64,000 nucleotides of DNA from Flavobacterium ajazii (GTDB taxonomy: Bacteria > Bacteroidota > Bacteroidia > Flavobacteriales > Flavobacteriaceae). The DNA lies in the NCBI RefSeq assembly GCF_010614725.1, contig NZ_JAAEHL010000003.1, forward strand, positions 62,001-126,000. The letters are read 5' to 3'. Positions 26,654 to 37,602 of the stretch are shown here, in pieces. Below the pieces are notes generated by a model that did not search any database, was not told the DNA's origin, and saw only the letters and a program-made list of their open reading frames with translations. A program made the position numbers and the translations under genes. Numbering within the stretch: position 1 is the first letter of the stretch; every line of letters begins with the position of its first letter.

Positions 26654-26765
26654 GGCAATAGGCTTAAAGGAAATTTGGTTTTCGATTTGGGATGATTTGG
26701 AAAAACCGAATAAGAGTATATTTCAGTCTCAAACCCGCTGTAAACCCAGAACGTTATGCGCAAGT
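26654..26765 (+). repeat. Cassette-boundary-like degenerate repeat, copy 2
   Basis: The partner of 23486-23591. It contains AGTCTCAAACCCGCTGTAA and CCCAGAACGTTATGCG near its end and stops about 26 bp before the ATG at 26791. An open frame from 26692 runs through it into the next gene, but the frame inside the repeat is probably accidental. Confidence 0.7.
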
Positions 26766-26790
26766 TTATAACAACAGAAAACCGAAAAAA

Positions 26791-27408
26791 ATGAGTTTAA
26801 TAAAAAACAAACCAATTGCAGAAATAAACAAGACGAGAAGAAATCCTAATGGTAGCGGTATTAGGTTTGAAGAATTTGGTAAATCAAAGAATATTTATGA
26901 TTATTCAGAAGAAGAAATTTCTGAAATGCTTTTTGGTATTTACACTCATAAAAGAATGCTTTTAGTTGACGGCGATTATTTTATAGAAATGGACAATGTA
27001 TTTCAAGTAATTTGTGAATTGGCTAATGTAACTTATGAGAAAAAACCAAGCTTGGAAGATTTAAAAACTAATAATCACAATATAATAAGCAACATAAGAA
27101 CATTTTATGTAAAAAATTATTATCTAATTACTAAAGATAAATTTGGAGGAGAAACCAAACATAAAATCTCAAGATTTTTAGTCAAAGTGGGGGTTATTAG
27201 AAATGGAAGAAATCAATTTAGTGGTCTTTATAGCAACAGAAATTTATATAAAACTATTCAAAGCTACAGTGGCAAAAAATATCCAAAGGATTTATATCAT
27301 CCAATAAAATTTTACATCAATGGTTTATTTTTTGGTGATCAATACAAAATCGATAATTTTATAGTGGAAAGTGAAATTAAGATTGAAAATACAAATTTAA
27401 TGAGATAA
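26791..27408 (+). CDS. Hypothetical protein downstream of HerA
   Basis: A 205-residue protein that I do not recognise. It starts MSLIKNKPIAEINKTRRNP and contains YDYSEEEISEMLFGIYTHKRMLLVD (read in parts, about 37-61), giving an acidic helix followed by a basic one. The rest is basic with many Lys, Asn and Tyr. No signal peptide or membrane helix is seen. The in-frame start at 26692 is rejected because it lies inside the repeat. It may be the single gene of its own cassette. Confidence 0.55.
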   Translation: MSLIKNKPIAEINKTRRNPNGSGIRFEEFGKSKNIYDYSEEEISEMLFGIYTHKRMLLVDGDYFIEMDNVFQVICELANVTYEKKPSLEDLKTNNHNIISNIRTFYVKNYYLITKDKFGGETKHKISRFLVKVGVIRNGRNQFSGLYSNRNLYKTIQSYSGKKYPKDLYHPIKFYINGLFFGDQYKIDNFIVESEIKIENTNLMR

Positions 27409-27603
27409 AAAAACTGAATAAACAACAGTAATTTAGTTATATAGATGCTTTCCCAAGGCTGGTGTAAGTGTCACACTCCTTGACACAATAAAATCATTAA
27501 AATTTTTATAACGTTAAAAGAATAAGCGTTTAAATAGCCTCCTCTATCATTTGTAATCTTTTTTGGTTACATGTTCCTAAAGTATTAACTACAAAATAAA
27601 TTA

Positions 27604-29118
27604 ATGAATTCTTTATTTATAAAAACACTTTCCTTTATTCCATTTCTAGTTGTCATTTTGTTAGTATTAAATTTGACAATTATTGAAGATTTGACAATTT
27701 ATAATATTGGATTTGTTTCGATATCTATGACTATCGCGACATTTTCAATTAGCTTTTCCCTTTTACAATATCAATTTTCTCCTTATAAAGCCTTACATCG
27801 ATCAATGTCAAGAAGGCAATTAATTTTTTCTTATTTAACAATATTCATATCTCTAATTCCACTATTCTGTCTTTTTTATAATTTAAAATATGTTCCATTA
27901 GCAGGATTAATCTGTATTCCAATTCTTAGTTACTTAATAATTTTATTAGTTGTCGTAGCAAATGAAGAAACCAATCCTATAATTTTAGTGAAGCGGAAAA
28001 TCTCTACTAAAAAAATAAATCAATTTATTGAAAATTTCAATTTAGAAGATAAAAAACAAATAAAGGAAATATCTGAATTGGAATTTTCTAAACCAGATGA
28101 AACCCCAATGCACGATTATGGAGAAACTAATTTTAAGCTAATAAATATAAAGGACAATCCGTTTTCGCTAATTTACAATTCAATCTCTATAACAATCCAA
28201 AACAATGATATTGAAAAATTTGCTGCATGTTTAAAGATGTACTTTGAAGCAGTTGATAATATTAAAAAAAATAAGATTTTAGAAACATATAATTTAAGAA
28301 ATCGCATTGAAAAATTATTGTGCATCTCATTTGAAAAGATTTCTTTTCAAGTATGTGCTAACGCTGAACGAAAGGATTTCCAAAATATTCTTATTGGTAC
28401 TTTATCTATTTATATAAAACGCAAAGCATTGACAAATGAGCATACTGACAGTACTTCACGAAAATTTTTGACTCTAATTTGTAAAAGTATAGAAACTCTA
28501 TTAGAACACGACAACTACGATGATGCTATAATTATTATTTCGACTTTAAGACAACTATGTCAAAAAGGATTATATAATTTACCAAAAGATGATTTGTTTT
28601 TCAATAACCGATTAACCCTATACCCTATTCTTATTAAACAAATTGGACAAAAAGCAATTACTTTAAAAAATTCTGATTTTTTATTTAGATGTCTCGAAGA
28701 AATTGGATATTTAGGATGTACAGCAGTTAAATTAGATAATCATATTATTGGTGTTAGTTGTTTAGACTCACTGGTTCAACTCGGTAGAGAGTCTCGTGCT
28801 AATGAATTGAAATGCTTCTGGAGCAGTTGTGCTTTGGAACCTGTCGATCATGCAGATGAGCGAATCTGGTGGATGCTAACCTGGATGCTGAAAGTAAAAG
28901 AATCTAATCGTGAAGATTGGTTAAGATCTTTTCAGACAGCGTATTCAAGACTTAATGGAAAGGAAAGAAAAATAGAGATGAAAGATGAGAATGGTAAGGC
29001 AATTTTCGAATTTAAAGATGGTAAGGAACCATATATTGAAGGCTTTTTGGATCGCAATTATGAAAAAAAAATTGACTATTCAGATTTTAAAGAATTAAAA
29101 GAATCGAGACTTTATTAA
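27604..29118 (+). CDS. Membrane protein with N-terminal helices and a large cytoplasmic domain
   Basis: A 504-residue protein. Four hydrophobic segments lie in residues ~8-27, 35-57, 78-97 and 100-122. The order and the segment FSISFSLLQYQFSPYKALHRS recall DUF2254-like membrane proteins, but this is weak. Residues ~140-504 look soluble and helical, with repeat-like helix pairs, and I cannot assign them. It is monocistronic within the defence-like block. A membrane-anchored effector or sensor is possible but not shown. The 195-bp gap upstream holds a hairpin (GTGTCA...TGACAC near 27466-27485) of unknown origin. Confidence 0.6.
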   Translation: MNSLFIKTLSFIPFLVVILLVLNLTIIEDLTIYNIGFVSISMTIATFSISFSLLQYQFSPYKALHRSMSRRQLIFSYLTIFISLIPLFCLFYNLKYVPLAGLICIPILSYLIILLVVVANEETNPIILVKRKISTKKINQFIENFNLEDKKQIKEISELEFSKPDETPMHDYGETNFKLINIKDNPFSLIYNSISITIQNNDIEKFAACLKMYFEAVDNIKKNKILETYNLRNRIEKLLCISFEKISFQVCANAERKDFQNILIGTLSIYIKRKALTNEHTDSTSRKFLTLICKSIETLLEHDNYDDAIIIISTLRQLCQKGLYNLPKDDLFFNNRLTLYPILIKQIGQKAITLKNSDFLFRCLEEIGYLGCTAVKLDNHIIGVSCLDSLVQLGRESRANELKCFWSSCALEPVDHADERIWWMLTWMLKVKESNREDWLRSFQTAYSRLNGKERKIEMKDENGKAIFEFKDGKEPYIEGFLDRNYEKKIDYSDFKELKESRLY

Positions 29119-29217
29119 TATTTACTTTAACCAAAGTCTTTTTAAAGAAGTACTTTTTTAGTAAATGTAATAAGTTTACATTTCACTTCCCTATTAACTC
29201 TAATCAAACTTACCTTT

Positions 29218-29775
29218 ATGAAAAACGAAAATGAATTAAAATTTGATAAAGTAACTGAACGTTATTTTGAATTCAATAATGCATTATTTGAGTTTCATAA
29301 ATTATTCAACGAAAAGAATAAGGATGAACGAGCTATTGCAATTATAGGTGGAACATTTAGCGAAATGGCTTTGGAACATGTCTTAAGGTCATTTTTCCCG
29401 GAAGACGAAAAAGAAGTTGATAAACTTTTCGAATTCAATCAGCCTCTAGGAAACTTTAGCAGCAAAATCACCATTGCATATTCTTTAGGCTTAATTGATA
29501 AACTAATTAAACAAGATTTAGATCTTGTTAGAAAAATACGCAATAAGTTTGCCCATGATTTATATACTTCTTTTCAGGATCAACAAATAAAATCGTGGTG
29601 CAACGAATTAAAATTTCATGAAATTTCAATGATGATGAAAGCACCACCAGAAGTTAATGAATTAGAAATTTTTCAAGTAGGAGTTAATCAAATCATTTCA
29701 CACCTAAGTGGATTAATATCATCAAGCAAAAAAGAAAAACGTAAAATTATTGATGATCTTAAGCAGTTTTTATAA
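29218..29775 (+). CDS. MltR-like helical protein
   Basis: A 185-residue, all-helical protein with the MltR-family pattern: AIAIIGGTFSEMALEHVL (about 41-58), FNQPLGNFSSKITIAYSLGLI (about 73-93, read in two parts) and DLDLVRKIRNKFAHD (about 99-113). E. coli MltR represses mannitol use, but family members also occur in defence islands and toxin-antitoxin-like loci, where the R-x-x-R-N-x-F-A-H core resembles HEPN-type helices (RxxxxH). An RNase role would therefore be worth considering; it is inference only. Confidence 0.6.
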   Translation: MKNENELKFDKVTERYFEFNNALFEFHKLFNEKNKDERAIAIIGGTFSEMALEHVLRSFFPEDEKEVDKLFEFNQPLGNFSSKITIAYSLGLIDKLIKQDLDLVRKIRNKFAHDLYTSFQDQQIKSWCNELKFHEISMMMKAPPEVNELEIFQVGVNQIISHLSGLISSSKKEKRKIIDDLKQFL

Positions 29776-29795
29776 GAGCATTATATGCTAACTAT

Positions 29796-29828
29796 TTGTT
29801 GAATATTTGTTGAATATTTGTTGAATAT
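29796..29828 (+). repeat. Three exact 11-bp tandem repeats (TTGTTGAATAT)
   Basis: Three copies in a row lie between the MltR-like gene and the HNH gene. Because 11 bp is not a multiple of three and the array touches the 5' end of the next reading frame, copy number could alter spacing of translation or transcription signals, as in phase-variable promoters. Confidence 0.9.
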
Positions 29829-29864
29829 TTGAGAATTTATAATTGTAATAATTTAACCGGGCTT

Positions 29865-30923
29865 ATGAACTTACCCTATTTTGAAAATCTTCCAATAAAT
29901 AAATTATCTTCAGTATTTGCTAATACTTCTGCAACTTATAAGTTTTACTGGTTTTTGGCTATTCTTGAACTGGTTGAAGAAGGTAACACGAACATTGAAA
30001 AAAGAAGATTATTCTCAAGAATGATAAGTAATGCCTGGTATACAGTTAATTATTTTCATGTTTCTTTTGGTAAACAAGATCTTATTCAAGATTCAGTTAG
30101 AGCTATTATAAAAATAGAGAACCTTACTATAAATGAAAATAAAAACACCATAAATACTGTTTTAAAAAATACTAATAAGATCGAAACTATCAAAATCTTG
30201 AATCATTTTGATAAAAATGTACCGCATTGGTTTATTTCATCTTGGTTTTCAGGAAATCGTAACGAAATTTATTCTCTTTCTCAAAATTTTGATCATGGAT
30301 GCCTTTACCGTTTAGAAAAAGATTTTATAGAGATAAATCCGGTCTGGATTTCGTATTTAAAATTGAATTCAAAAATACTCAAAGATTTTTGTTTGTGGAA
30401 TTTGTCTTTATTCCTTCAGAAAAAAAATTTAAATGTTCCAGACATTCCAAATAAAATAAGCAAATCAATCACGAGAAATTCTTTAGTTAAACAAACCAAC
30501 GAATATTGGAAATTAGTATTTAATGAATTGGGATCGATTGATTGTATTTTTACGAACAACCGATTAGTTTTTGACGAAAAAAAATATGCCTTGGACCATT
30601 TTGTTCCTCATGCATTTGTTTCTCATGATTTAATTTGGAATTTAATTCCCATCGATAAAATTTTTAATTCTTCAAAAGGAGATAAACTTCCATCGGTAAA
30701 CAGGTATTTTGATAAGTTTTATGATCTTCAAAAAACAGCTTATGAAATAGTTAAAAATCATAATTCTAAAAATAAATACTTAGAGGAATATCTTACTATT
30801 TTTCCTGATTTAGAAGATAATGAATTTGATTATTTGAGATACAAAGAAACAATCCAGCCTTTGATTACTATTGCTAGTAATAACGGGTTTTTATACATGA
30901 AAGATTCAGCATTTTTTGAATAA
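29865..30923 (+). CDS. HNH endonuclease domain protein
   Basis: A 352-residue protein. The C-terminal part carries an HNH site: LDHFVPHAFVSHDLIWNLIP (about 241-260 from this ATG) followed by NSSKGDKLP, giving the D-H...H...N...N...K pattern of HNH/McrA-like nucleases. The N-terminal ~200 residues are helical and unassigned, as in several defence HNH proteins that are guided by another domain. A TTG at 29829 would add 12 residues; ATG 29865 is the better start. Tandem repeats lie just upstream. The gap to 31238 shows nothing I can name except a promoter element. Confidence 0.75.
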   Translation: MNLPYFENLPINKLSSVFANTSATYKFYWFLAILELVEEGNTNIEKRRLFSRMISNAWYTVNYFHVSFGKQDLIQDSVRAIIKIENLTINENKNTINTVLKNTNKIETIKILNHFDKNVPHWFISSWFSGNRNEIYSLSQNFDHGCLYRLEKDFIEINPVWISYLKLNSKILKDFCLWNLSLFLQKKNLNVPDIPNKISKSITRNSLVKQTNEYWKLVFNELGSIDCIFTNNRLVFDEKKYALDHFVPHAFVSHDLIWNLIPIDKIFNSSKGDKLPSVNRYFDKFYDLQKTAYEIVKNHNSKNKYLEEYLTIFPDLEDNEFDYLRYKETIQPLITIASNNGFLYMKDSAFFE

Positions 30924-31237
30924 ATACTCAGATTGTATATGAAGAGGTTTAACTTGTCTTTTATATCATCTCAGATAAAAAACAATCTAGCTGATATATT
31001 CTAAGAAGCTATAGTTATCATATTTAATACAATACCACTAAGCAATAATTGTAACAGTCAAAGATTTCTATTTTTAACATCTTTTTTTATTAAAATCTAA
31101 AACAAGTATTTCTACCTGACTAGTTTACTCCTTAATGAACTAATTTGTCCTTTAAATTCTACAATTACGGAAAACCGTAATAAATAGATTTTTCCACTTA
31201 TTACTTTTGTGAAAATTTTAATTAAAAATGATTAATT

Positions 31238-31570
31238 ATGAAGAGATTTACTGTTAGAGTGCAACTACATACCAAAGAGGGTAAACAATATGATTTAGAC
31301 TCTGAAACTTATAAAGTCTTGCATGCTGAAATGCAAAGTTTAGGTTTTACTAAAACAATAGAATCAGTCCGAGGAACAATCCATGATTTACCTTCAGCAG
31401 AGTATAATTATATATCAAGCAATAATGGTGTCACAAAACATGACATATTGGGAGCAGCTAAAGAAGCTGGTAAGGCTACTGGACAAAATTTTTCAATTTT
31501 AGTAAATCCTATTGCGGATGTTGGTAGATGCTGGTACAATCTCGATGAGACTGAAGAAAGTGAAGATTAG
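31238..31570 (+). CDS. Small DUF2622-like protein
   Basis: A 110-residue protein starting MKRFTVRVQLHTKEG, with YKVLHAEMQSLGFTKTI (about 25-41), LPSAEYNYIS and a late helix AKEAGKATGQNFSILV (about 73-88). This beta-alpha-beta order, with a ferredoxin-like look, matches small proteins labelled DUF2622; the function of these single-domain proteins is not established. A -7 element TACTTTTG is at 31202-31209, 28 bp before the ATG, and a terminator follows at 31655, so it is transcribed alone. Confidence 0.6.
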   Translation: MKRFTVRVQLHTKEGKQYDLDSETYKVLHAEMQSLGFTKTIESVRGTIHDLPSAEYNYISSNNGVTKHDILGAAKEAGKATGQNFSILVNPIADVGRCWYNLDETEESED

Positions 31571-31654
31571 TTTCAATATAATTTAGTGCAGAATTAGCCT
31601 AAATAATAAGAAAAACGATAAAGGGAGTTTCCCTTCCACATCGCAAATATACAG

Positions 31655-31688
31655 AAAGGGCTGTCTTTAAAACAGCCCTTTATAATAA
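31655..31688 (+). terminator. Hairpin terminator
   Basis: A 10-bp perfect stem AAAGGGCTGT / ACAGCCCTTT (31655-31664 and 31672-31681) with a 7-nt loop; the following tract is AT-rich but not a pure T-run. It lies between the DUF2622-like gene and the histone-gene fragment. Confidence 0.75.
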
Positions 31689-31695
31689 TAATACT

Positions 31696-31750
31696 GAATT
31701 TTATTTTTTAGATTTATCAATAGAAACTTTTCAAAACTCTTTTAAAAGTT
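31696..31750 (-). pseudogene. 3'-end fragment of a histone H1-like gene
   Basis: About 55 bp match the last codons of the intact gene at 34562-34738 (51 of 55 aligned positions, one gap; counted by eye). In the minus-strand frame it reads ELLKEF, then a TGA in place of the Arg codon, then KVSIDKSKK and the stop. Sequence 5' of the fragment is unrelated. It could be the left half of an att-like duplication made when the S24/PRTase/NADAR segment entered the 3' end of the histone gene, or a decayed paralogue. The surrounding gap 31571-32019 holds otherwise only the terminator. Confidence 0.75.
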
Positions 31751-32019
31751 CTACGCAACTGGCGCTCATTTTGAATTAGTGACTAGTTAAATTGTATTAG
31801 AAAAAGAGCGTTTGCAGTTTAAATAAATTCTTAGCCTTCCGAAGTTTACTTATGAATGTTTGTCATTTGTTCAAAGAACAAAAGCTATAAAAGTAGATTT
31901 AATCAAATCGACGAAAAACAAAGATCTACTATCAGAACTTTCAAAGGAAACAGTTGTAGAAGCAAAGGTCCATGAAACACGGAAGATAGATAATTGTTTA
32001 ATTAGATTATTAAGATATC

Positions 32020-32442
32020 ATGGAATTTCTAAAATCAACTTCAAGAGTTCCGATAATTGTAGATGAAAATCTAAAGCAGAAAATATTGGAATGGGAGCAG
32101 AAAAGTATATTTTATGGTGCATTTCCTGTTGTTGGAGATAGTATGACTTGTGACGACCAAAACAAGACAATACCGAACGGGGCTAAAGTTTTAGCTTATC
32201 AATTACAAATAGAATTTGAATCCGGTTTTTATCCATGGTTTGAAATACCTACGGGCGAACCTCTTTTAATTATGGGCACAACATCGAAAGGAAATGATTT
32301 TTGTTTGTGTAAAACTATATTTTTTTTAGATTCAGTTAATAATATGGTCTCATTAAGATCTTATAATCCAAATTATAGTGACCAAATTATCCCAATATCC
32401 TATATCAAAACTCTATTTAAAATTGAGTTGGTTATAAAATAA
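32020..32442 (+). CDS. S24/LexA-like peptidase domain protein without an N-terminal DNA-binding domain
   Basis: A 140-residue protein with the LexA/UmuD-like catalytic core: FPVVGDSMTCDD (about 35-46) carries the GDSM serine nucleophile, and AKVLAYQLQ (about 55-63) with LCKTIFF provides the region where the general-base Lys normally lies. About 30 residues precede the core, too few for the usual helix-turn-helix. It may be a stand-alone sensor or autoprotease that links the adjacent PRTase and NADAR genes to DNA damage. A short overlapping frame at 31860-32066 does not look like a missing N-terminus. Confidence 0.65.
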   Translation: MEFLKSTSRVPIIVDENLKQKILEWEQKSIFYGAFPVVGDSMTCDDQNKTIPNGAKVLAYQLQIEFESGFYPWFEIPTGEPLLIMGTTSKGNDFCLCKTIFFLDSVNNMVSLRSYNPNYSDQIIPISYIKTLFKIELVIK

Positions 32443-32613
32443 GCCTCTCAAGTTTTTCAGACTTGGAAATTTACAAGAATCCTGTTAAGGTAGTAACCAA
32501 TATATTAATAATCTTTCACAGTGATCTAAAGAGCATGTAAATGTTTAAAGATTGTTCCTTGTATCTTATTAAGCATTATCATACTTTTATCCTTTATTGA
32601 AAATTTAAAATAA

Positions 32614-33672
32614 ATGAAGGAAATAGCGGGAAAGATATTTGAGATTCTACAAGATTATCACTGCGATAGTCCTGAAACTGATCATAGAATGTCAATTGAG
32701 CATATAATTGAATGGGCAAATCAATTTGACGATGATGCAGAATTTGTTCTTACTGAATTGTTATATTTTTTACCGCAAATCTATATTTCAAAAAACAGAG
32801 CAATAGAATTACTAGAGAAACGCCTTGTCGATTTTCAAGCGTTTTATAAATATAGTTCAATGCAGGAATTCATCAATAATACAAACTTTATTGATACTCA
32901 AAAACCAGAAAAAAGTCAAAAAGAAGTCCTTTCAATTCTGAGAAACATTTTAGATGAAAAGTATGGAATTAATTACGATCTTTTGATTGATCAGCCCAAA
33001 AAGCATTATATATATTTTGATGATGTATTAGCTACTGGGGGAACTGTTTATAAAGATCTTTCAAATTGGTTATCTGAATCTACTCATCTTAAAGATGTTT
33101 TAAGTAAAGAAAAAACAATAGCACTAAGTTTGTTTTGTTATCACAAACTAGGTTTTGATAATATTGAATGGCGGTTAATGAAAGCGTTTGACGATCGAAT
33201 TAAAAATTTTCTGCTAGTTGGATTTGATTATAAAATAGAAAATCAACTCAAACCCAAATGGATTGCAGAAAAGCAAGCGCTGAATTGTATTTATCCTTTG
33301 GAAAAACAACCTAAAGAAGTCTTAGAATATTTAGCATCACTTGAAGGAGAGAATACTGGTGTTGCAGCTTTTAGACCAGAAAATCTTCCTCTTAAGGAAA
33401 TCTTTTTTTCAAGTCCTGAGAGTAGAATACGTTTTGAAAATATAGTATTAGAAAAAGGATTGGAACTAATTCAAAAAATAAAAAAAGCTGATCCCGATCC
33501 TCGAAAAAGACCTCTTGGAGATACTGTGAGATCTCATCGCACCCTAGGAACTGGCACTTTATTTTTTACATGGAGAAACATATCGAATACCTGTCCCGTT
33601 GTATTTTGGTGGGATGTTCCCGGTCATGACTGGATTCCATTATTTTGTTTAAGAAATAGAGGAACTAATTAA
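32614..33672 (+). CDS. Phosphoribosyltransferase-like (PRTase-CE-type) conflict-system protein
   Basis: A 352-residue protein. The middle region has YIYFDDVLATGGTVYKDL (about 131-148), the PRPP-binding loop D-D-x-x-A-T-G-G-T of phosphoribosyltransferases. N-terminal helices (about 1-120) and a C-terminal segment with VVFWWDVPGHDWIPLF (about 329-344) match the layout of PRTase-CE proteins described in biological-conflict gene clusters. Such proteins may transfer or remove phosphoribosyl groups; the substrate is unknown. It is 20 bp upstream of the NADAR gene and clearly co-transcribed with it. Confidence 0.7.
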   Translation: MKEIAGKIFEILQDYHCDSPETDHRMSIEHIIEWANQFDDDAEFVLTELLYFLPQIYISKNRAIELLEKRLVDFQAFYKYSSMQEFINNTNFIDTQKPEKSQKEVLSILRNILDEKYGINYDLLIDQPKKHYIYFDDVLATGGTVYKDLSNWLSESTHLKDVLSKEKTIALSLFCYHKLGFDNIEWRLMKAFDDRIKNFLLVGFDYKIENQLKPKWIAEKQALNCIYPLEKQPKEVLEYLASLEGENTGVAAFRPENLPLKEIFFSSPESRIRFENIVLEKGLELIQKIKKADPDPRKRPLGDTVRSHRTLGTGTLFFTWRNISNTCPVVFWWDVPGHDWIPLFCLRNRGTN

Positions 33673-33692
33673 TTTTTTCATTAATTTGCAAT

Positions 33693-34313
33693 ATGAAAAT
33701 ATCTGAAAGAACATATAACACGGCTGATGTTATTGCTTTTAAAAGTACAAAAGAAGAATTTGGAGGATTGTCTAATATGGCTCCTGGATATTCTTTACGT
33801 GTCAATGATATAATTATACCTTCAGCTGAAGCTTTATATCAAGTTTGCCGTTTTCCTTTGTTTCCTCATATTCAGGAAGAAATTATATCTCAAAACAGTC
33901 CTATGACTGCTAAAATGATTAGTCGTAAGTATCATGGACATACAAGACAAGATTGGGAAGAAGTAAAATACGATATAATGTACTGGGTATTGAAGGTAAA
34001 GCTTTCTCAAAACTTAGAGAAGTTTTATAACCTTTTACAAAAAACAGGAAATTCCCCTATAGTTGAACTATCTAATAAAGATAAAGACTGGGCTGTCGTC
34101 CCTGAAGGGCATAATTCTTTAAGAGGTAAAAATGCATTAGGAAGATTGTTGATGCAACTAAGATCTGAATATATTAATAACAATAATTCTATTGATTGTG
34201 TTGCCCCTTTAAATATAAACGGCTTCCTTCTTTATGGTTCGGAAATTGAAACTGTCTGCAATCCAGAAATTGAATATGAAAACCACTTCCTTTTTGATTT
34301 AGATTATGCTTAA
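33693..34313 (+). CDS. NADAR (YbiA/DUF1768) family N-glycosidase-like protein
   Basis: A 206-residue protein with the NADAR pattern: EEFGGLSNMAPGYSL (about 21-35), PSAEALYQVCRFP (about 43-55), SPMTAKMISRKYHGHTR-DWEEVKYDIM (about 69-97), and LLQKTGNSPIVEL...GKNALGRLLMQLR (about 117-164). NADAR proteins cleave N-glycosidic bonds; E. coli YbiA acts on riboflavin intermediates, and other members remove ADP-ribose from guanine. Its pairing with a PRTase-like protein suggests a nucleotide- or ADP-ribose-based toxin/antitoxin or defence pair; that is inference. Confidence 0.85.
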   Translation: MKISERTYNTADVIAFKSTKEEFGGLSNMAPGYSLRVNDIIIPSAEALYQVCRFPLFPHIQEEIISQNSPMTAKMISRKYHGHTRQDWEEVKYDIMYWVLKVKLSQNLEKFYNLLQKTGNSPIVELSNKDKDWAVVPEGHNSLRGKNALGRLLMQLRSEYINNNNSIDCVAPLNINGFLLYGSEIETVCNPEIEYENHFLFDLDYA

Positions 34314-34388
34314 CTAAGAGTTATTTGCTATTTTTCTTAAAAAAACAGCAAATAAACCTACTGTTAACTTAATGATAAAACAATTTAG

Positions 34389-34419
34389 CTTTGGCAAAAA
34401 AATATAAATTTTGCCAAAG
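34389..34419. terminator. Hairpin between convergent NADAR and histone-like genes
   Basis: A perfect 11-bp stem CTTTGGCAAAA / TTTTGCCAAAG (34389-34399, 34409-34419). It lies 76 bp past the NADAR stop and could terminate transcription from either side, although the T-run is weak. Confidence 0.6.
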
Positions 34420-34561
34420 TTAGATTTCAATACCTCTACCTTAACACTCCTGAAAAATGGAATGATTTAAACCATTTCTAAGGTTTATCGATTTGCATAT
34501 TTCGAAAATAAAAAACCTTCCAAAAATCTGTAAGGCTAATTAAGTAAAAGTAAGAATGAAT

Positions 34562-34738
34562 TTATTTTTTAGATTCCTCAATAGAAACTTTTCTAAACTC
34601 TTTTAAAAGTTTTTCAATTTCCAAAGTTGATTTACGAGCTCTCGCTCCTGCTGCTTTAAAACCTTTATCAATTAATGATTCAGATTCTGTTTTAAATGTT
34701 TCGATTTCAGCGTTTATTTTTGCTACTAAATCTTTCAT
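34562..34738 (-). CDS. Histone H1-like protein
   Basis: A 58-residue basic protein, MKDLVAKINAEIETFK at the start, GFKAAGARARKSTLEIEKLL in the middle and EFRKVSIEESKK at the end. This is the short H1-like (Hc1-type) protein widespread in Bacteroidota, thought to bind DNA as a nucleoid protein. A clear promoter lies upstream (34764-34804). Its last ~50 bp are duplicated at 31696-31750, so the 3' end may have served as an insertion site. The unusually regular length and sequence leave little doubt about the frame. Confidence 0.9.
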   Translation of the reverse strand: MKDLVAKINAEIETFKTESESLIDKGFKAAGARARKSTLEIEKLLKEFRKVSIEESKK

Positions 34739-34763
34739 GATATTTTTTTTAAATTTAAGATGG

Positions 34764-34804
34764 CAAAAGTAAAGTTTTGCTTTTTTTATAAAGCAAAACT
34801 TTAC
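34764..34804 (-). promoter_or_regulatory. Promoter and palindrome of the histone H1-like gene
   Basis: On the minus strand a -7 element TACTTTTG (34764-34771) is preceded after 22 bp by TTTTG, fitting the Bacteroidota -33/-7 promoter. A 12-bp perfect inverted repeat GTAAAGTTTTGC / GCAAAACTTTAC (34769-34780, 34793-34804) overlaps both elements, so it may be an autoregulatory operator. Confidence 0.7.
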
Positions 34805-34842
34805 GACAAAAATTAGAAAAACTTTAATCTGTATTTCCTATA

Positions 34843-36531
34843 TTATCGAACCTCATTTTCTTGAGACATCTTATTTAGTTCATCAATAAAATAAGAAGTT
34901 GGACATCCGACTTCTGCAAAAAAGGCTTGGCTGAATTTTTTAGTACTGCTAAAGCCAACTTCTTCAGCCAATGCACTATTTGAATATTTTCTTATTTTAC
35001 TGTCCTCTTTTAACAACTTTATTAGATAATGTATTTTAAGATCAGCAATGTATTTTACAAATCTCTTCCCTCTGTATTTATAAATTACATTTGATAAATA
35101 TTTTGGGTTGGAATTGAATACAGCAGCAAGCTTTACGGAAGTTAAGTCTTTTAAAAGAAATTTTTTATCCCTTTCAAATTTTTCTAATTGCCTGAGTATA
35201 TCTGCAACAGTATCTTTATTCATATTTCCAATTCCTCTATCTACATTTTTGACTTCCACTTTGGAATCAGCTTCATTCTTTGCCATCAATTCCTCAAATT
35301 TCTGCCTGTAAATATTCTTATTTCTGATATGTCTGTAAGCAATGAATAATACAACTAAAAAAAACAGAACTACTATACCAATGTAAATAAAGTCATTATA
35401 CTTCCTTTTCTTAAACAAGATTTCAATATGCAGCTTGTCTTTTAATAATACTTTCGTATCATAATCTTTACGCACCCGACCTGAAAGATAGATGAACTTG
35501 TTATCTAATATGCTGTCCGCCTTTAGGAGCTTGTCTGTATAATAGAGCTGCTTATGAAGATCTTTTTTTGATTTGTAATACTTTAATAGCAATTCATAGT
35601 TCTGACGAAGATCTGGACGTATGTATCCTTTGGTATCAAAAATACGATCTACCTTAATAAAATACGGAAGTGCCATTTCAGGTTTATGAAGATTCCAGTA
35701 GCTTTTACCAATATAAAAATATCCGACAGACACATTGCCAAAATCTTTGTTTTTATTTATAGACGGAATTGAATATTTAATTTTTTTTATAGCTTCTGCA
35801 TAGTTGTTTTTAAAATACTGATTGATTCCTTCTGAATGAATAAAGTAATCTTTCATTTCATAATTGTCGAGTCTTATACCTTCCTGAATACCCTTTTCAT
35901 TTATTTTAGAACATAATCCGTAATTGCCAATTCTATTTTGACATAAACCAAGTAAATGCAATGAATTTAAATATGCCCTTGCGTTTCCCTTTCTAAAATA
36001 ATCCGTACACTCTATCAATAAAGAAATTGCTTCATCATAGAAGCCCAGAAAATATTTTATACTGGCAATATGATATTTAACCTTATGTATTAAGTACTGA
36101 TCATTGGTTTTAGATATAAAATTATCAGCAATGAGATAATTATCCAGCGCATTTTTATGCTCTTTTCGTGAATAGTAAACAATTCCTTTAGAAAGATAAG
36201 AGGATCCTATAAGCTCATTGTCATGTGATTTTCGTGCTGTTAAAATCATGCTGTCAGCATAAGCTAGTTGAAACTTATCGGAGGTATAGTGTACATAATT
36301 TTTATATCCGTTTACTATTTCTTTAGAATTTCTCTCTCTTTTAGCTTTTTGTAGAAAGTATTCAAGATAAAATGCCTGCCGATTTTTAATATCTGCGGTT
36401 GATTCTATTCTCTCAAATAGATAGTCATACGTTTTTCTTATAAGTGAATCGGAGGCTCTAACTTTATTTTCCTGAGCATGAAATTGATCTCCAAATAAAA
36501 AGACCAGTATCATTATATATTGTTTAAACAT
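34843..36531 (-). CDS. TPR-containing AraC-family regulator
   Basis: A 562-residue membrane-anchored regulator. It has a signal or anchor at 1-20, TPR-like helices at about 40-370, a transmembrane helix at about 382-402 (IYIGIVVLFFLVVLFIAYRH), and an AraC DNA-binding domain at about 455-555 (ALAEEVGFSSTKKFSQAFFAEVGCP). The sensing part faces the periplasm and the DNA-binding part the cytoplasm. An unusual palindrome/direct-repeat operator lies 150 bp upstream, between it and a divergent lipoprotein gene, and is a likely target. Confidence 0.85.
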   Translation of the reverse strand: MFKQYIMILVFLFGDQFHAQENKVRASDSLIRKTYDYLFERIESTADIKNRQAFYLEYFLQKAKRERNSKEIVNGYKNYVHYTSDKFQLAYADSMILTARKSHDNELIGSSYLSKGIVYYSRKEHKNALDNYLIADNFISKTNDQYLIHKVKYHIASIKYFLGFYDEAISLLIECTDYFRKGNARAYLNSLHLLGLCQNRIGNYGLCSKINEKGIQEGIRLDNYEMKDYFIHSEGINQYFKNNYAEAIKKIKYSIPSINKNKDFGNVSVGYFYIGKSYWNLHKPEMALPYFIKVDRIFDTKGYIRPDLRQNYELLLKYYKSKKDLHKQLYYTDKLLKADSILDNKFIYLSGRVRKDYDTKVLLKDKLHIEILFKKRKYNDFIYIGIVVLFFLVVLFIAYRHIRNKNIYRQKFEELMAKNEADSKVEVKNVDRGIGNMNKDTVADILRQLEKFERDKKFLLKDLTSVKLAAVFNSNPKYLSNVIYKYRGKRFVKYIADLKIHYLIKLLKEDSKIRKYSNSALAEEVGFSSTKKFSQAFFAEVGCPTSYFIDELNKMSQENEVR

Positions 36532-36680
36532 AAATTAAGTTTTAAATTGAAGCAATTGTCCTTAAATGCATTTTTTTAAGCAAAAAGCACTATTTGGTAA
36601 ATATAATTTAATGGGAAGCTTAAAAGAGTATTGATGTTAACATAATTAATTGATTTTTAGTATGATTTACCATGAAAAAA

Positions 36681-36767
36681 GGGTGTCGATTTTCGGAAAA
36701 TCGATACCCTAAATTCGGAAAATCGATATACAATGTTTTGCAAACTAGAAAATCTACATTTAGATTT
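36681..36767. promoter_or_regulatory. Operator-like palindrome, phased direct repeat and hairpin
   Basis: GGGTGTCGATTTTC (36681-36694) and GAAAATCGATACCC (36696-36709) form a 14-bp palindrome with one mismatch. The 15-mer TTCGGAAAATCGATA occurs exactly at 36692-36706 and 36714-36728, a 22-bp period, about two helical turns. AAATCTA / TAGATTT (36750-36756, 36761-36767) forms a further hairpin. All lie in the divergent 36532-36885 gap, which suggests cooperative binding of a regulator. Confidence 0.65.
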
Positions 36768-36885
36768 GTTTCGAATTCAATAGCAAAAAAAACATTTGGC
36801 ATCGTGTCGGATAAAAGTTCTGCTAGCCCGGGTGAAATGAACTGACTGAAAAAAAAGCAGTCGTTACATTTAACACTTTTTAATC

Positions 36886-37602
36886 ATGAAAAATTTTTTA
36901 TTATTGTTGGTGGTGATTCTTACATCACTATTGTTTTCTTGTACAAGCGAGAATATGGAAAGCTCAATTGGTAATTTGGTTGAAGAGAAATCTAAAAACA
37001 CAGCAAAACTATTTCAAAATCTGAGTCCTGAAAATCCTGCTAATACATATGATATAGCAGGTAAAATACACAATGATCTTCTTGATGTTTACCTGTCGTG
37101 TAATTACACATTTAATACAATTCCTCAAATAAGCCAAATAGTAGATTCCATTTCGGCTTTAAATAATGACCTTTTAATTTTGGGAACAAATCTTCCAGTA
37201 AATTTTCAAGAAATACAAGAAACTGTAGATAATCCTCAGACAAAATTAGAACAGGCGATTGCAAACTCCTCAATGACAAATGCTGCTAAAATTTGTCTGT
37301 CCAACTACATGGCATCCTTAATTTTATGGGAAATAAATGAATATTCTGTAATTCATCAGTCCATAATTTCATTTGAAGCATCTGTTATAGCGAATACGCA
37401 GTTTAGCAGTGAGGATAAGAGAATCATTCTGACCACTTCATCTATAGTAAGATATTCTACCTATTACGCAAAAGAGCGCAAAGACAAAGACTGGGAAACT
37501 TCTGTTGGCAATCGTGTTGGTGCGGTACAAGGCGCGGTAGCTAATTCTTCAACTGCAGTTAACAAGTCAATCTTGACTGGACTCCTGATTCACAATCTCT
37601 AA
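36886..37602 (+). CDS. Hypothetical lipoprotein
   Basis: A 238-residue lipoprotein with signal peptide and lipobox LLFSC (Cys about 19), then a Ser/Asn-rich, probably helical domain that I do not recognise. The C-terminus has small-residue-rich GAVQGAVANSSTAV. It is divergent from the TPR-AraC gene across the palindrome region and may be its target. A long hairpin follows at 37689-37737. Confidence 0.65.
   Translation: MKNFLLLLVVILTSLLFSCTSENMESSIGNLVEEKSKNTAKLFQNLSPENPANTYDIAGKIHNDLLDVYLSCNYTFNTIPQISQIVDSISALNNDLLILGTNLPVNFQEIQETVDNPQTKLEQAIANSSMTNAAKICLSNYMASLILWEINEYSVIHQSIISFEASVIANTQFSSEDKRIILTTSSIVRYSTYYAKERKDKDWETSVGNRVGAVQGAVANSSTAVNKSILTGLLIHNL

Follow-up and report, generated by a model that had tools for sequence, protein, structure and literature searches.

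A PRTase-NADAR gene pair of probable DS-32 type in Flavobacterium ajazii, its relatives and its S24-like neighbour

NADAR proteins studied elsewhere hydrolyse ADP-ribose from guanine and serve as antitoxins to ADP-ribosyltransferase (ART) toxins, as in the pairs DarT1-NADAR and YarT-YbiA. In NADARs of the YbiA type the last strand carries a Glu, and one such protein is an antitoxin to an ART (PMC11125620); E88, K95 and D171 are catalytic in the Escherichia coli C7 NADAR (PMC11543638). The other described system of relevance is DS-32, for which NCBIfam holds two models, DS32_1_antiphage (NF053875) and DS32_2_antiphage (NF053876); the DS names derive from the DefensePredictor study, in which 94 predicted units were cloned and 42 protected E. 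coli, and DS-32 is placed there by its name (PMC13092281). Here we present a pair of genes encoding a phosphoribosyltransferase-like (PRTase) and a NADAR protein, found in a 64,000-nucleotide stretch of Flavobacterium ajazii (contig NZ_JAAEHL010000003.1, positions 62,001 to 126,000, from a 5.75 Mb genome in 33 contigs; the whole stretch is called the window below). Because both proteins exceed the curated DS32_1 and DS32_2 cut-offs, we identify the pair with high confidence as a DS-32-type two-gene anti-phage unit, and the locus as a whole is quite likely best explained as such a unit, with its own short leader, at a variable chromosomal site and with an unrelated S24-like gene beside it.

The original prediction had joined three genes, for an S24 peptidase core, a PRTase and a NADAR protein, into one compact possible conflict module that was not, to its knowledge, a described system. 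The three open reading frames (ORFs) it listed on the + strand are all present, at 32020-32442 (140 aa), 32614-33672 (352 aa) and 33693-34313 (206 aa), and the ORF coordinates bear out the 20 bp between PRTase and NADAR, the gap between S24 and PRTase being 171 bp. For the pair, the assumption of novelty proves wrong, given the two NCBIfam antiphage models, and the single three-gene module does not hold, as S24 adjoins the pair in none of 85 loci and the DNA shared with relatives excludes it. The features of the unit are as follows.

32567..32613, + strand: leader of the unit, the last 47 bp 5' of the PRTase start codon, delimited by DNA homology with relatives
32614..33672, + strand: PRTase-like protein, DS-32 component 1 (DS32_1_antiphage), 352 aa, by NF053875, PF24390 and predicted fold
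33013..33051, + strand: PRPP-binding-loop motif YFDDVLATGGTVY, PRTase residues 134-146, with D136, D137 and G142 conserved (PRPP, phosphoribosyl pyrophosphate)
33693..34313, + strand: NADAR protein, DS-32 component 2 (DS32_2_antiphage), 206 aa, by NF053876, TIGR02464 and PF08719

As to the family evidence, the PRTase matches PF24390 (PRTase-CE) in Pfam at E 3.9e-44 and scores 319.3 bits against NF053875 (curated cut-off 250), and the NADAR ORF matches PF08719 at E 6.2e-25 and scores 267.1 bits against NF053876 (curated cut-off 240), passing also the cut-off of TIGR02464, the model for a riboflavin-intermediate N-glycosidase (79.8 versus 73.7 bits). The pair resembles DS-32 in its two families, their order and adjacency, and in exceeding both equivalog cut-offs; it differs in that its PRTase has about 23-29% identity with the distant members, most of which are not from Bacteroidota, and belongs to another clade than the E. 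coli and Klebsiella pair, and in that its anti-phage activity is a prediction. DS32_1 also matches, at E<=0.001, each of the 55 aligned PRTases that were examined. The conflict or defence role proposed earlier for PRTase and NADAR thus stands on the family matches, the DS32 cut-offs and the adjacency described below, and the locus extends to one more bacterial host a defence pair that already had a name, being of low novelty in itself. With DarT1-NADAR and YarT-YbiA it shares a NADAR with conserved catalytic residues in a two-gene conflict pair, but its partner is a PRTase with a PRPP loop (PF24390, PRTase-CE), not an ART, and no ART family was matched in the proteins scanned. Likeness to retrons of type III-A is limited to a weak similarity of the PRTase to PADLOC PRTase_III-A (E 3e-07), no reverse transcriptase family being found among the ten proteins scanned at 26692-37602. 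The PRTase also matches phrog_8525, a PHROG of unknown function, at E 2.6e-25.

The PRPP loop D-D-x-x-A-T-G-G-T noted earlier in the second gene is present at residues 134-144 as Y-F-D-D-V-L-A-T-G-G-T, with D136, D137 and G142 conserved in 84 of 86 aligned rows, the other two having gaps there. The structure model of the PRTase, computed from a 55-row alignment (A4, 55 of the 86 sequences), has a mean predicted local distance difference test score (pLDDT) of 92.9 and a predicted TM score of 0.90. A Foldseek comparison of this model with the PDB places uracil and orotate PRTases first (best E 2.3e-03, for a uracil PRTase), with no match below E 0.001, and in a second structural comparison the best match is the uracil PRTase 5e38_B (Z 10.0, root-mean-square deviation 2.6 over 122 residues), 45 of the 50 rows listed being named PRTase or PyrR, and the others being 1v9s, 1ufr, 2e55, 7rh8 (Fur1p) and 5vog. 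A sequence search of the PDB with the PRTase profile gave no PRTase match. A type I PRTase fold, on which the earlier reading of this gene had been made to depend, is thus confidently predicted, the acidic PRPP loop included.

In the NADAR protein, alignment with the YbiA structure 2b3w locates E46, R53 and E125, which by this alignment are the catalytic Glu, the Lys/Arg and the last-strand Glu of the YbiA type; E46 and E125 are conserved in 86 of 86 aligned rows, and position 53 is R in 73 rows and K in 13. Equating these residues with E88, K95 and D171 of C7 is our reading from their spacing and from the Glu/Asp rule (PMC11125620).

The recurrence of the pair was followed in 85 loci, of which 79 distinct ones represent the best 80 of 110 PRTase-profile relatives and six come from other searches; the set includes five pairs of loci with identical PRTase, in part the same locus held in two collections. 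NADAR lies directly beside PRTase in all 85, with the PRTase first and on the same strand, and one E. coli and one Klebsiella record have the same layout; of the adjacency that had been expected to recur across genomes, the PRTase-NADAR part is therefore real, and the S24 part, with no match to the window protein in any of the 85, is not. The closest named relative by PRTase, among the best 80 of 110, is Flavobacterium sp. 1355 (L038), with 87% identity. Its DNA is shared with the window over 32567-34315 (86.7%), the match ending on both sides and beginning 125 bases past the S24 stop codon, and in three further relatives (L120, L121, L130) the match starts at 32552-32558. As shared DNA starts at these positions, the unit is, judged by homology, a leader of about 47-62 bp plus two genes, and we infer that the leader at 32567..32613 holds a promoter. 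The next gene of the window (34843-36531) has a protein-level match (51.8%) beyond the pair in L038 too, so the two genomes may share one chromosomal site.

Within the genus, the PRTase is found in only 14 of 398 genomes (F. ajazii itself counted, and two of the 14 holding fragments only), and the pair is thus accessory and patchy there. Its relatives span several phyla, and in a tree of 83 rows (86, less five shorter than 300 aa, plus two added) the window PRTase sits in a Bacteroidota-rich clade, and the E. coli/Klebsiella pair in another. These two pairs, one from each genus, exceed both DS32 cut-offs, and the one from E. coli (L136:3941-5574) lies between the replication P gene and the nin-region genes of a lambdoid prophage. 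The Klebsiella pair, used as a blastn query, gave a partial match in 62 of 5,426 E. coli genomes, among the matches listed always in NADAR genes. A phage origin was also considered, and no match to the pair was found among annotated phages or viral contigs. A survey of upstream partners, covering one gene from each of 55 of the 85 loci (in eight, the second ORF, the nearest being short or a PRTase fragment; the 30 left out are L034, L066, L073, L082 and all of L091-L116), revealed no common family beyond small numbers, such as ResIII (4) and integrase (4), among the 25 of 70 families listed.

A variation on the pair is presented by a distant clade (26 rows, support 100/100), in some loci of which NADAR forms the N-terminal part of a larger protein. 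Neighbours were called here in 84 of the 85 loci (L034 left out; L103 and L113 without result). Ten NADAR ORFs exceed 400 aa, and by Pfam five carry Methylase_S, three carry DUF1156, and two (L114 and L115) carry NADAR alone, the extension of L114 having no Pfam name. The fusions are as follows.

L097:6499-8565, L098:6989-9208, L107:5689-7845, L109:3934-6036 and L116:6839-9517: NADAR::HsdS-like (Methylase_S) fusions, by Pfam
L115:7029-9125: NADAR::HsdS-like fusion by homology only, 40.8% identical to the L109 tail
L091:6704-10510, L093:6963-10673 and L096:7041-10700: NADAR::DUF1156 DNA methylase fusions, by Pfam, with HmaB in L096 by PADLOC

All six HsdS-type loci have HsdM-like sequence upstream, in some of them separated by further genes, and five of the six have HsdR-like sequence downstream, the DS32-type PRTase standing between the HsdM-like sequence and the fusion; PADLOC labels were obtained for the type I components of L109. 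The DUF1156 fusions have the PRTase directly upstream and an HmaA-like SNF2 helicase further upstream, and L092 and L095 hold parts of the same Hma-like arrangement. The NADAR part passes the DS32_2 cut-off in all three fusions tested (L109, L096 and L116). Strong partners of these kinds occur in 11 of the 85 loci (six type I, five Hma-like), all outside the clade of the window, where no fusion was seen, weak HsdM/HsdR-like matches lie near four loci (L040, L052, L072 and L079) with none fused, and one of the 55 upstream genes surveyed is an HsdR, not fused. Distant members of the family of pairs are embedded in type I restriction-modification or Hma systems; the window pair stands alone. The long branches that meet at the deep split mean that it is no proof of separate origins of the fusions. 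As NADAR is fused to DNA-targeting subunits of HsdS or DUF1156 methylase type, these proteins suggest that NADAR, if not the pair as a whole, acts at places of DNA recognition. The titles and abstract beginnings in the literature searched contain nothing on a NADAR-HsdS fusion or on a PRTase-NADAR mechanism; the mentions of hsdS in PMC11543638 are strain genotypes. The fusions, to subunits of two different modification systems, deserve follow-up.

With regard to mechanism, PRTases form N-glycosidic bonds to ribose, and NADARs cleave them. Because the two enzymes catalyse opposite reactions on one type of bond, toxin/antidote logic is plausible for the pair, and we tentatively favour, as somewhat short of an even chance, a writer/eraser mechanism with NADAR as the antidote, over NADAR as the effector or as an accessory to DNA modification. 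The PRTase would transfer a 5-phosphoribosyl group from PRPP to a base or an amino group, probably one in a nucleic acid, with an N-glycosidic linkage as the result, and this would block phage replication or stop the cell; NADAR, as an N-glycosidase, would remove the group and so protect the uninfected cell, and infection would upset the balance between the two. The riboflavin-pathway substrate of YbiA is also a phosphoribosylamino compound, and as this substrate and the product of NUDIX action both carry phosphoribosyl groups, the writer/eraser mechanism gains further favour. The latter group is left by NUDIX cleavage of an ADP-ribosylated target (PMC11543638), and the PRTase could place that same group directly from PRPP. 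The direction of the reaction, its substrate and the identity of the toxic gene are what we infer here; the fusions to DNA-targeting subunits in the distant clade favour DNA as the substrate, and, more broadly, the strict pairing, the conserved NADAR active site, the clade-dependent PRPP loop and the fusions point to action on DNA or nucleotides at an N-glycosidic bond. In its widest form, which we think rather improbable, the proposal is that PRTase and NADAR are the writer and the eraser of a portable cassette whose mark on nucleic acids is 5-phosphoribosylation of bases, with PRPP as the donor. In Flavobacterium and E. coli this cassette would work on its own, and fusion of the eraser to the DNA-targeting subunit would have incorporated it into type I restriction and Hma systems. 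Such 5-phosphoribosylation would in effect be ADP-ribosylation without AMP; we know of no description of it, and if the PRTase does write this mark, it would be a type of nucleic-acid modification new to science.

A number of observations weigh against the identification or against the proposed mechanism. The equation of DS-32 with this pair rests on the NCBIfam names: the string DS-32 is absent from the main text of the DefensePredictor article in the parts covered, and weak support for the link comes from a PRTase in the legend of Fig. 4 and a single NADAR in the text; nor do those parts of the main text state a mechanism for DS-32 (PMC13092281). The NADAR of L037 falls just below the DS32_2 cut-off (237.5 versus 240), and two Chryseobacterium loci, with tandem PRTases followed by one NADAR (L060:4796-7041 and L063:4725-7041), and hence two PRTases per NADAR, fit a simple one-to-one pair poorly. 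Lys95 of C7 corresponds to an Arg in the window NADAR, and C7 NADAR with the change K95R kept hydrolysis in vitro while no longer rescuing cells from DarT1 (PMC11543638). The last Thr of the PRPP loop is T in 54, R in 25 and another residue in five of the 84 readable rows (E. coli and Klebsiella left out of this tally), and the Arg accounts for 25 of the 26 readable rows of L037 and L091-L116; as the Thr is replaced there, the PRTases of these loci may depart from the usual mode of PRPP use. Finally, where NADAR is joined to a DNA-targeting subunit, it could just as well act as the effector.

The latter possibility, with NADAR as the effector and the PRTase as a sensor or regulator that would bind PRPP or a nucleotide, in the manner of PyrR, we regard as unlikely, while it survives best among the alternatives. 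On infection the PRTase would set NADAR free, and NADAR would then cleave an N-glycosidic bond by hydrolysis, either that of an essential nucleotide or one in the DNA of the phage. Consistent with such a role are the stricter conservation of the NADAR active site (E46 and E125 in every row) compared with the loop Thr, replaced in 30 of 84, the PyrR entries among the structural matches of the PRTase, and the fusions, in which it is NADAR that is joined to DNA-targeting subunits. On the other hand, D136, D137 and G142 of the PRTase are conserved in 84 of 84 readable rows, and the paired NADARs characterised in PMC11543638 and PMC11125620 are antidotes, not toxins.

Next comes the possibility that a partner would direct both enzymes to their sites on DNA, where they would form an additional layer of marking or removal in systems of restriction type, the window form being stripped down. 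The fusions speak for it, five of HsdS type by Pfam and L115 by homology, with HsdM-like and HsdR-like sequence beside them, as do the three DUF1156 methylase fusions with their HmaA-like helicase. However, strong partners are confined to 11 of 85 loci, partial in L092 and L095 and all outside the clade of the window, in which the weak matches near four loci and the one upstream HsdR are the only traces, none fused, and no modification gene is present among the ten proteins scanned around the window pair, so that we consider this doubtful. A housekeeping role, a clean-up of riboflavin intermediates like that of YbiA together with a salvage PRTase, and no defence at all, would accord with the TIGR02464 score, but is highly improbable in view of the patchy occurrence in the genus, the prophage and restriction-system settings, the scores over the DS32 cut-offs, and the presence, at another place in this genome, of a second NADAR with a higher score (192.7 versus 89.3 bits).

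There remains the gene that had been proposed as the third component.

32020..32442, + strand: S24/LexA-type core without helix-turn-helix (HTH), a bystander gene, recognised by its score against a repressor-type profile

The reading of this ORF as an S24 core without a DNA-binding domain was sound. It is below the cut-off of PF00717 (14.9 versus 23.3 bits, E 0.022, suggestive only), and an earlier profile of nine proteins, mostly of UmuD type, did not separate it from shuffles; a repressor-type profile gives it 27.6 bits, the best of 500 shuffles reaching 7.0. That profile consists of 21 domains taken from related genomes, a number of which are almost identical to each other and all of which were chosen by the motif G-x-S-M, so that it favours any protein with this motif; its match covers residues 25-139 and places Ser41, in GDSM, against the motif serine and Lys99 against a lysine, and we take these two residues to be the catalytic dyad. 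By this profile the ORF is a genuine S24-like sequence with a collinear Ser/Lys core, and it probably represents the catalytic end of a repressor of prophage type. It shares that core with the LexA and UmuD peptidases and differs from them in its 40 residues before Ser41, which hold no N-terminal HTH, in having no Ala-Gly or Cys-Gly dipeptide before Ser41, and in being unlinked to the pair. Relatives were found neither in 198 other genomes (E<=1e-5), nor in a second, overlapping sample of 394 (E<=0.001), nor in phages or viral contigs, with S24 domains in general being common (69 of 80 genomes). A sequence search of the PDB returned only HIV envelope chains (E 0.0067 and worse), judged chance, and a single-sequence AlphaFold model (pLDDT 33.1) was useless. 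When two S24 profiles were run over six frames of 100 loci (the 85, 13 from the genus, and those of Klebsiella and E. coli) at E<=0.01, with flanks of about 1.5 kb or less each side for the six added loci and the 13 from the genus and of up to 6 kb for the others, the only matches besides the window were an ORF in L116, presumably a LexA, and the repressor of the E. coli locus, both about 3 kb upstream of the pair. A three-gene system in which S24 would sense damage and control the pair, although suggested by a genuine domain on the same strand 171 bp from the PRTase, is extremely unlikely with S24 adjacent in none of the 85 loci, its two matches so distant, the unit homology excluding it, and neither an HTH nor the dipeptide before Ser41; the S24 gene is an unrelated neighbour. 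At about 31827-32063 on the + strand, a stop-free stretch of 79 codons lies 5' of the S24 ORF and overlaps it in another frame, and is possibly a decayed gene.

Other genes near the pair include the following.

29829..30923, + strand: HNH-endonuclease-like gene (PF13395, E 7.6e-08), a hotspot neighbour and not a component

This gene is, apart from the unit, all that L038 shares with the window at E 1e-5. It lies upstream of the pair here, and its homologue, with 84% DNA identity, lies just downstream of NADAR in L038; the exchange of position is consistent with a shared variable site or with an associated defence gene. A gene of 110 aa at 31238-31570 matches phrog_8894, of unknown function, at E 1.5e-10, and scores 24.1 bits against YmfI, far below the cut-off of 140. 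The protein encoded at 29218-29775 is MltR-like (PF05068, E 3e-07), with a weak PADLOC match to Cas13b over residues 57-140, and we presume that it may be HEPN-like.

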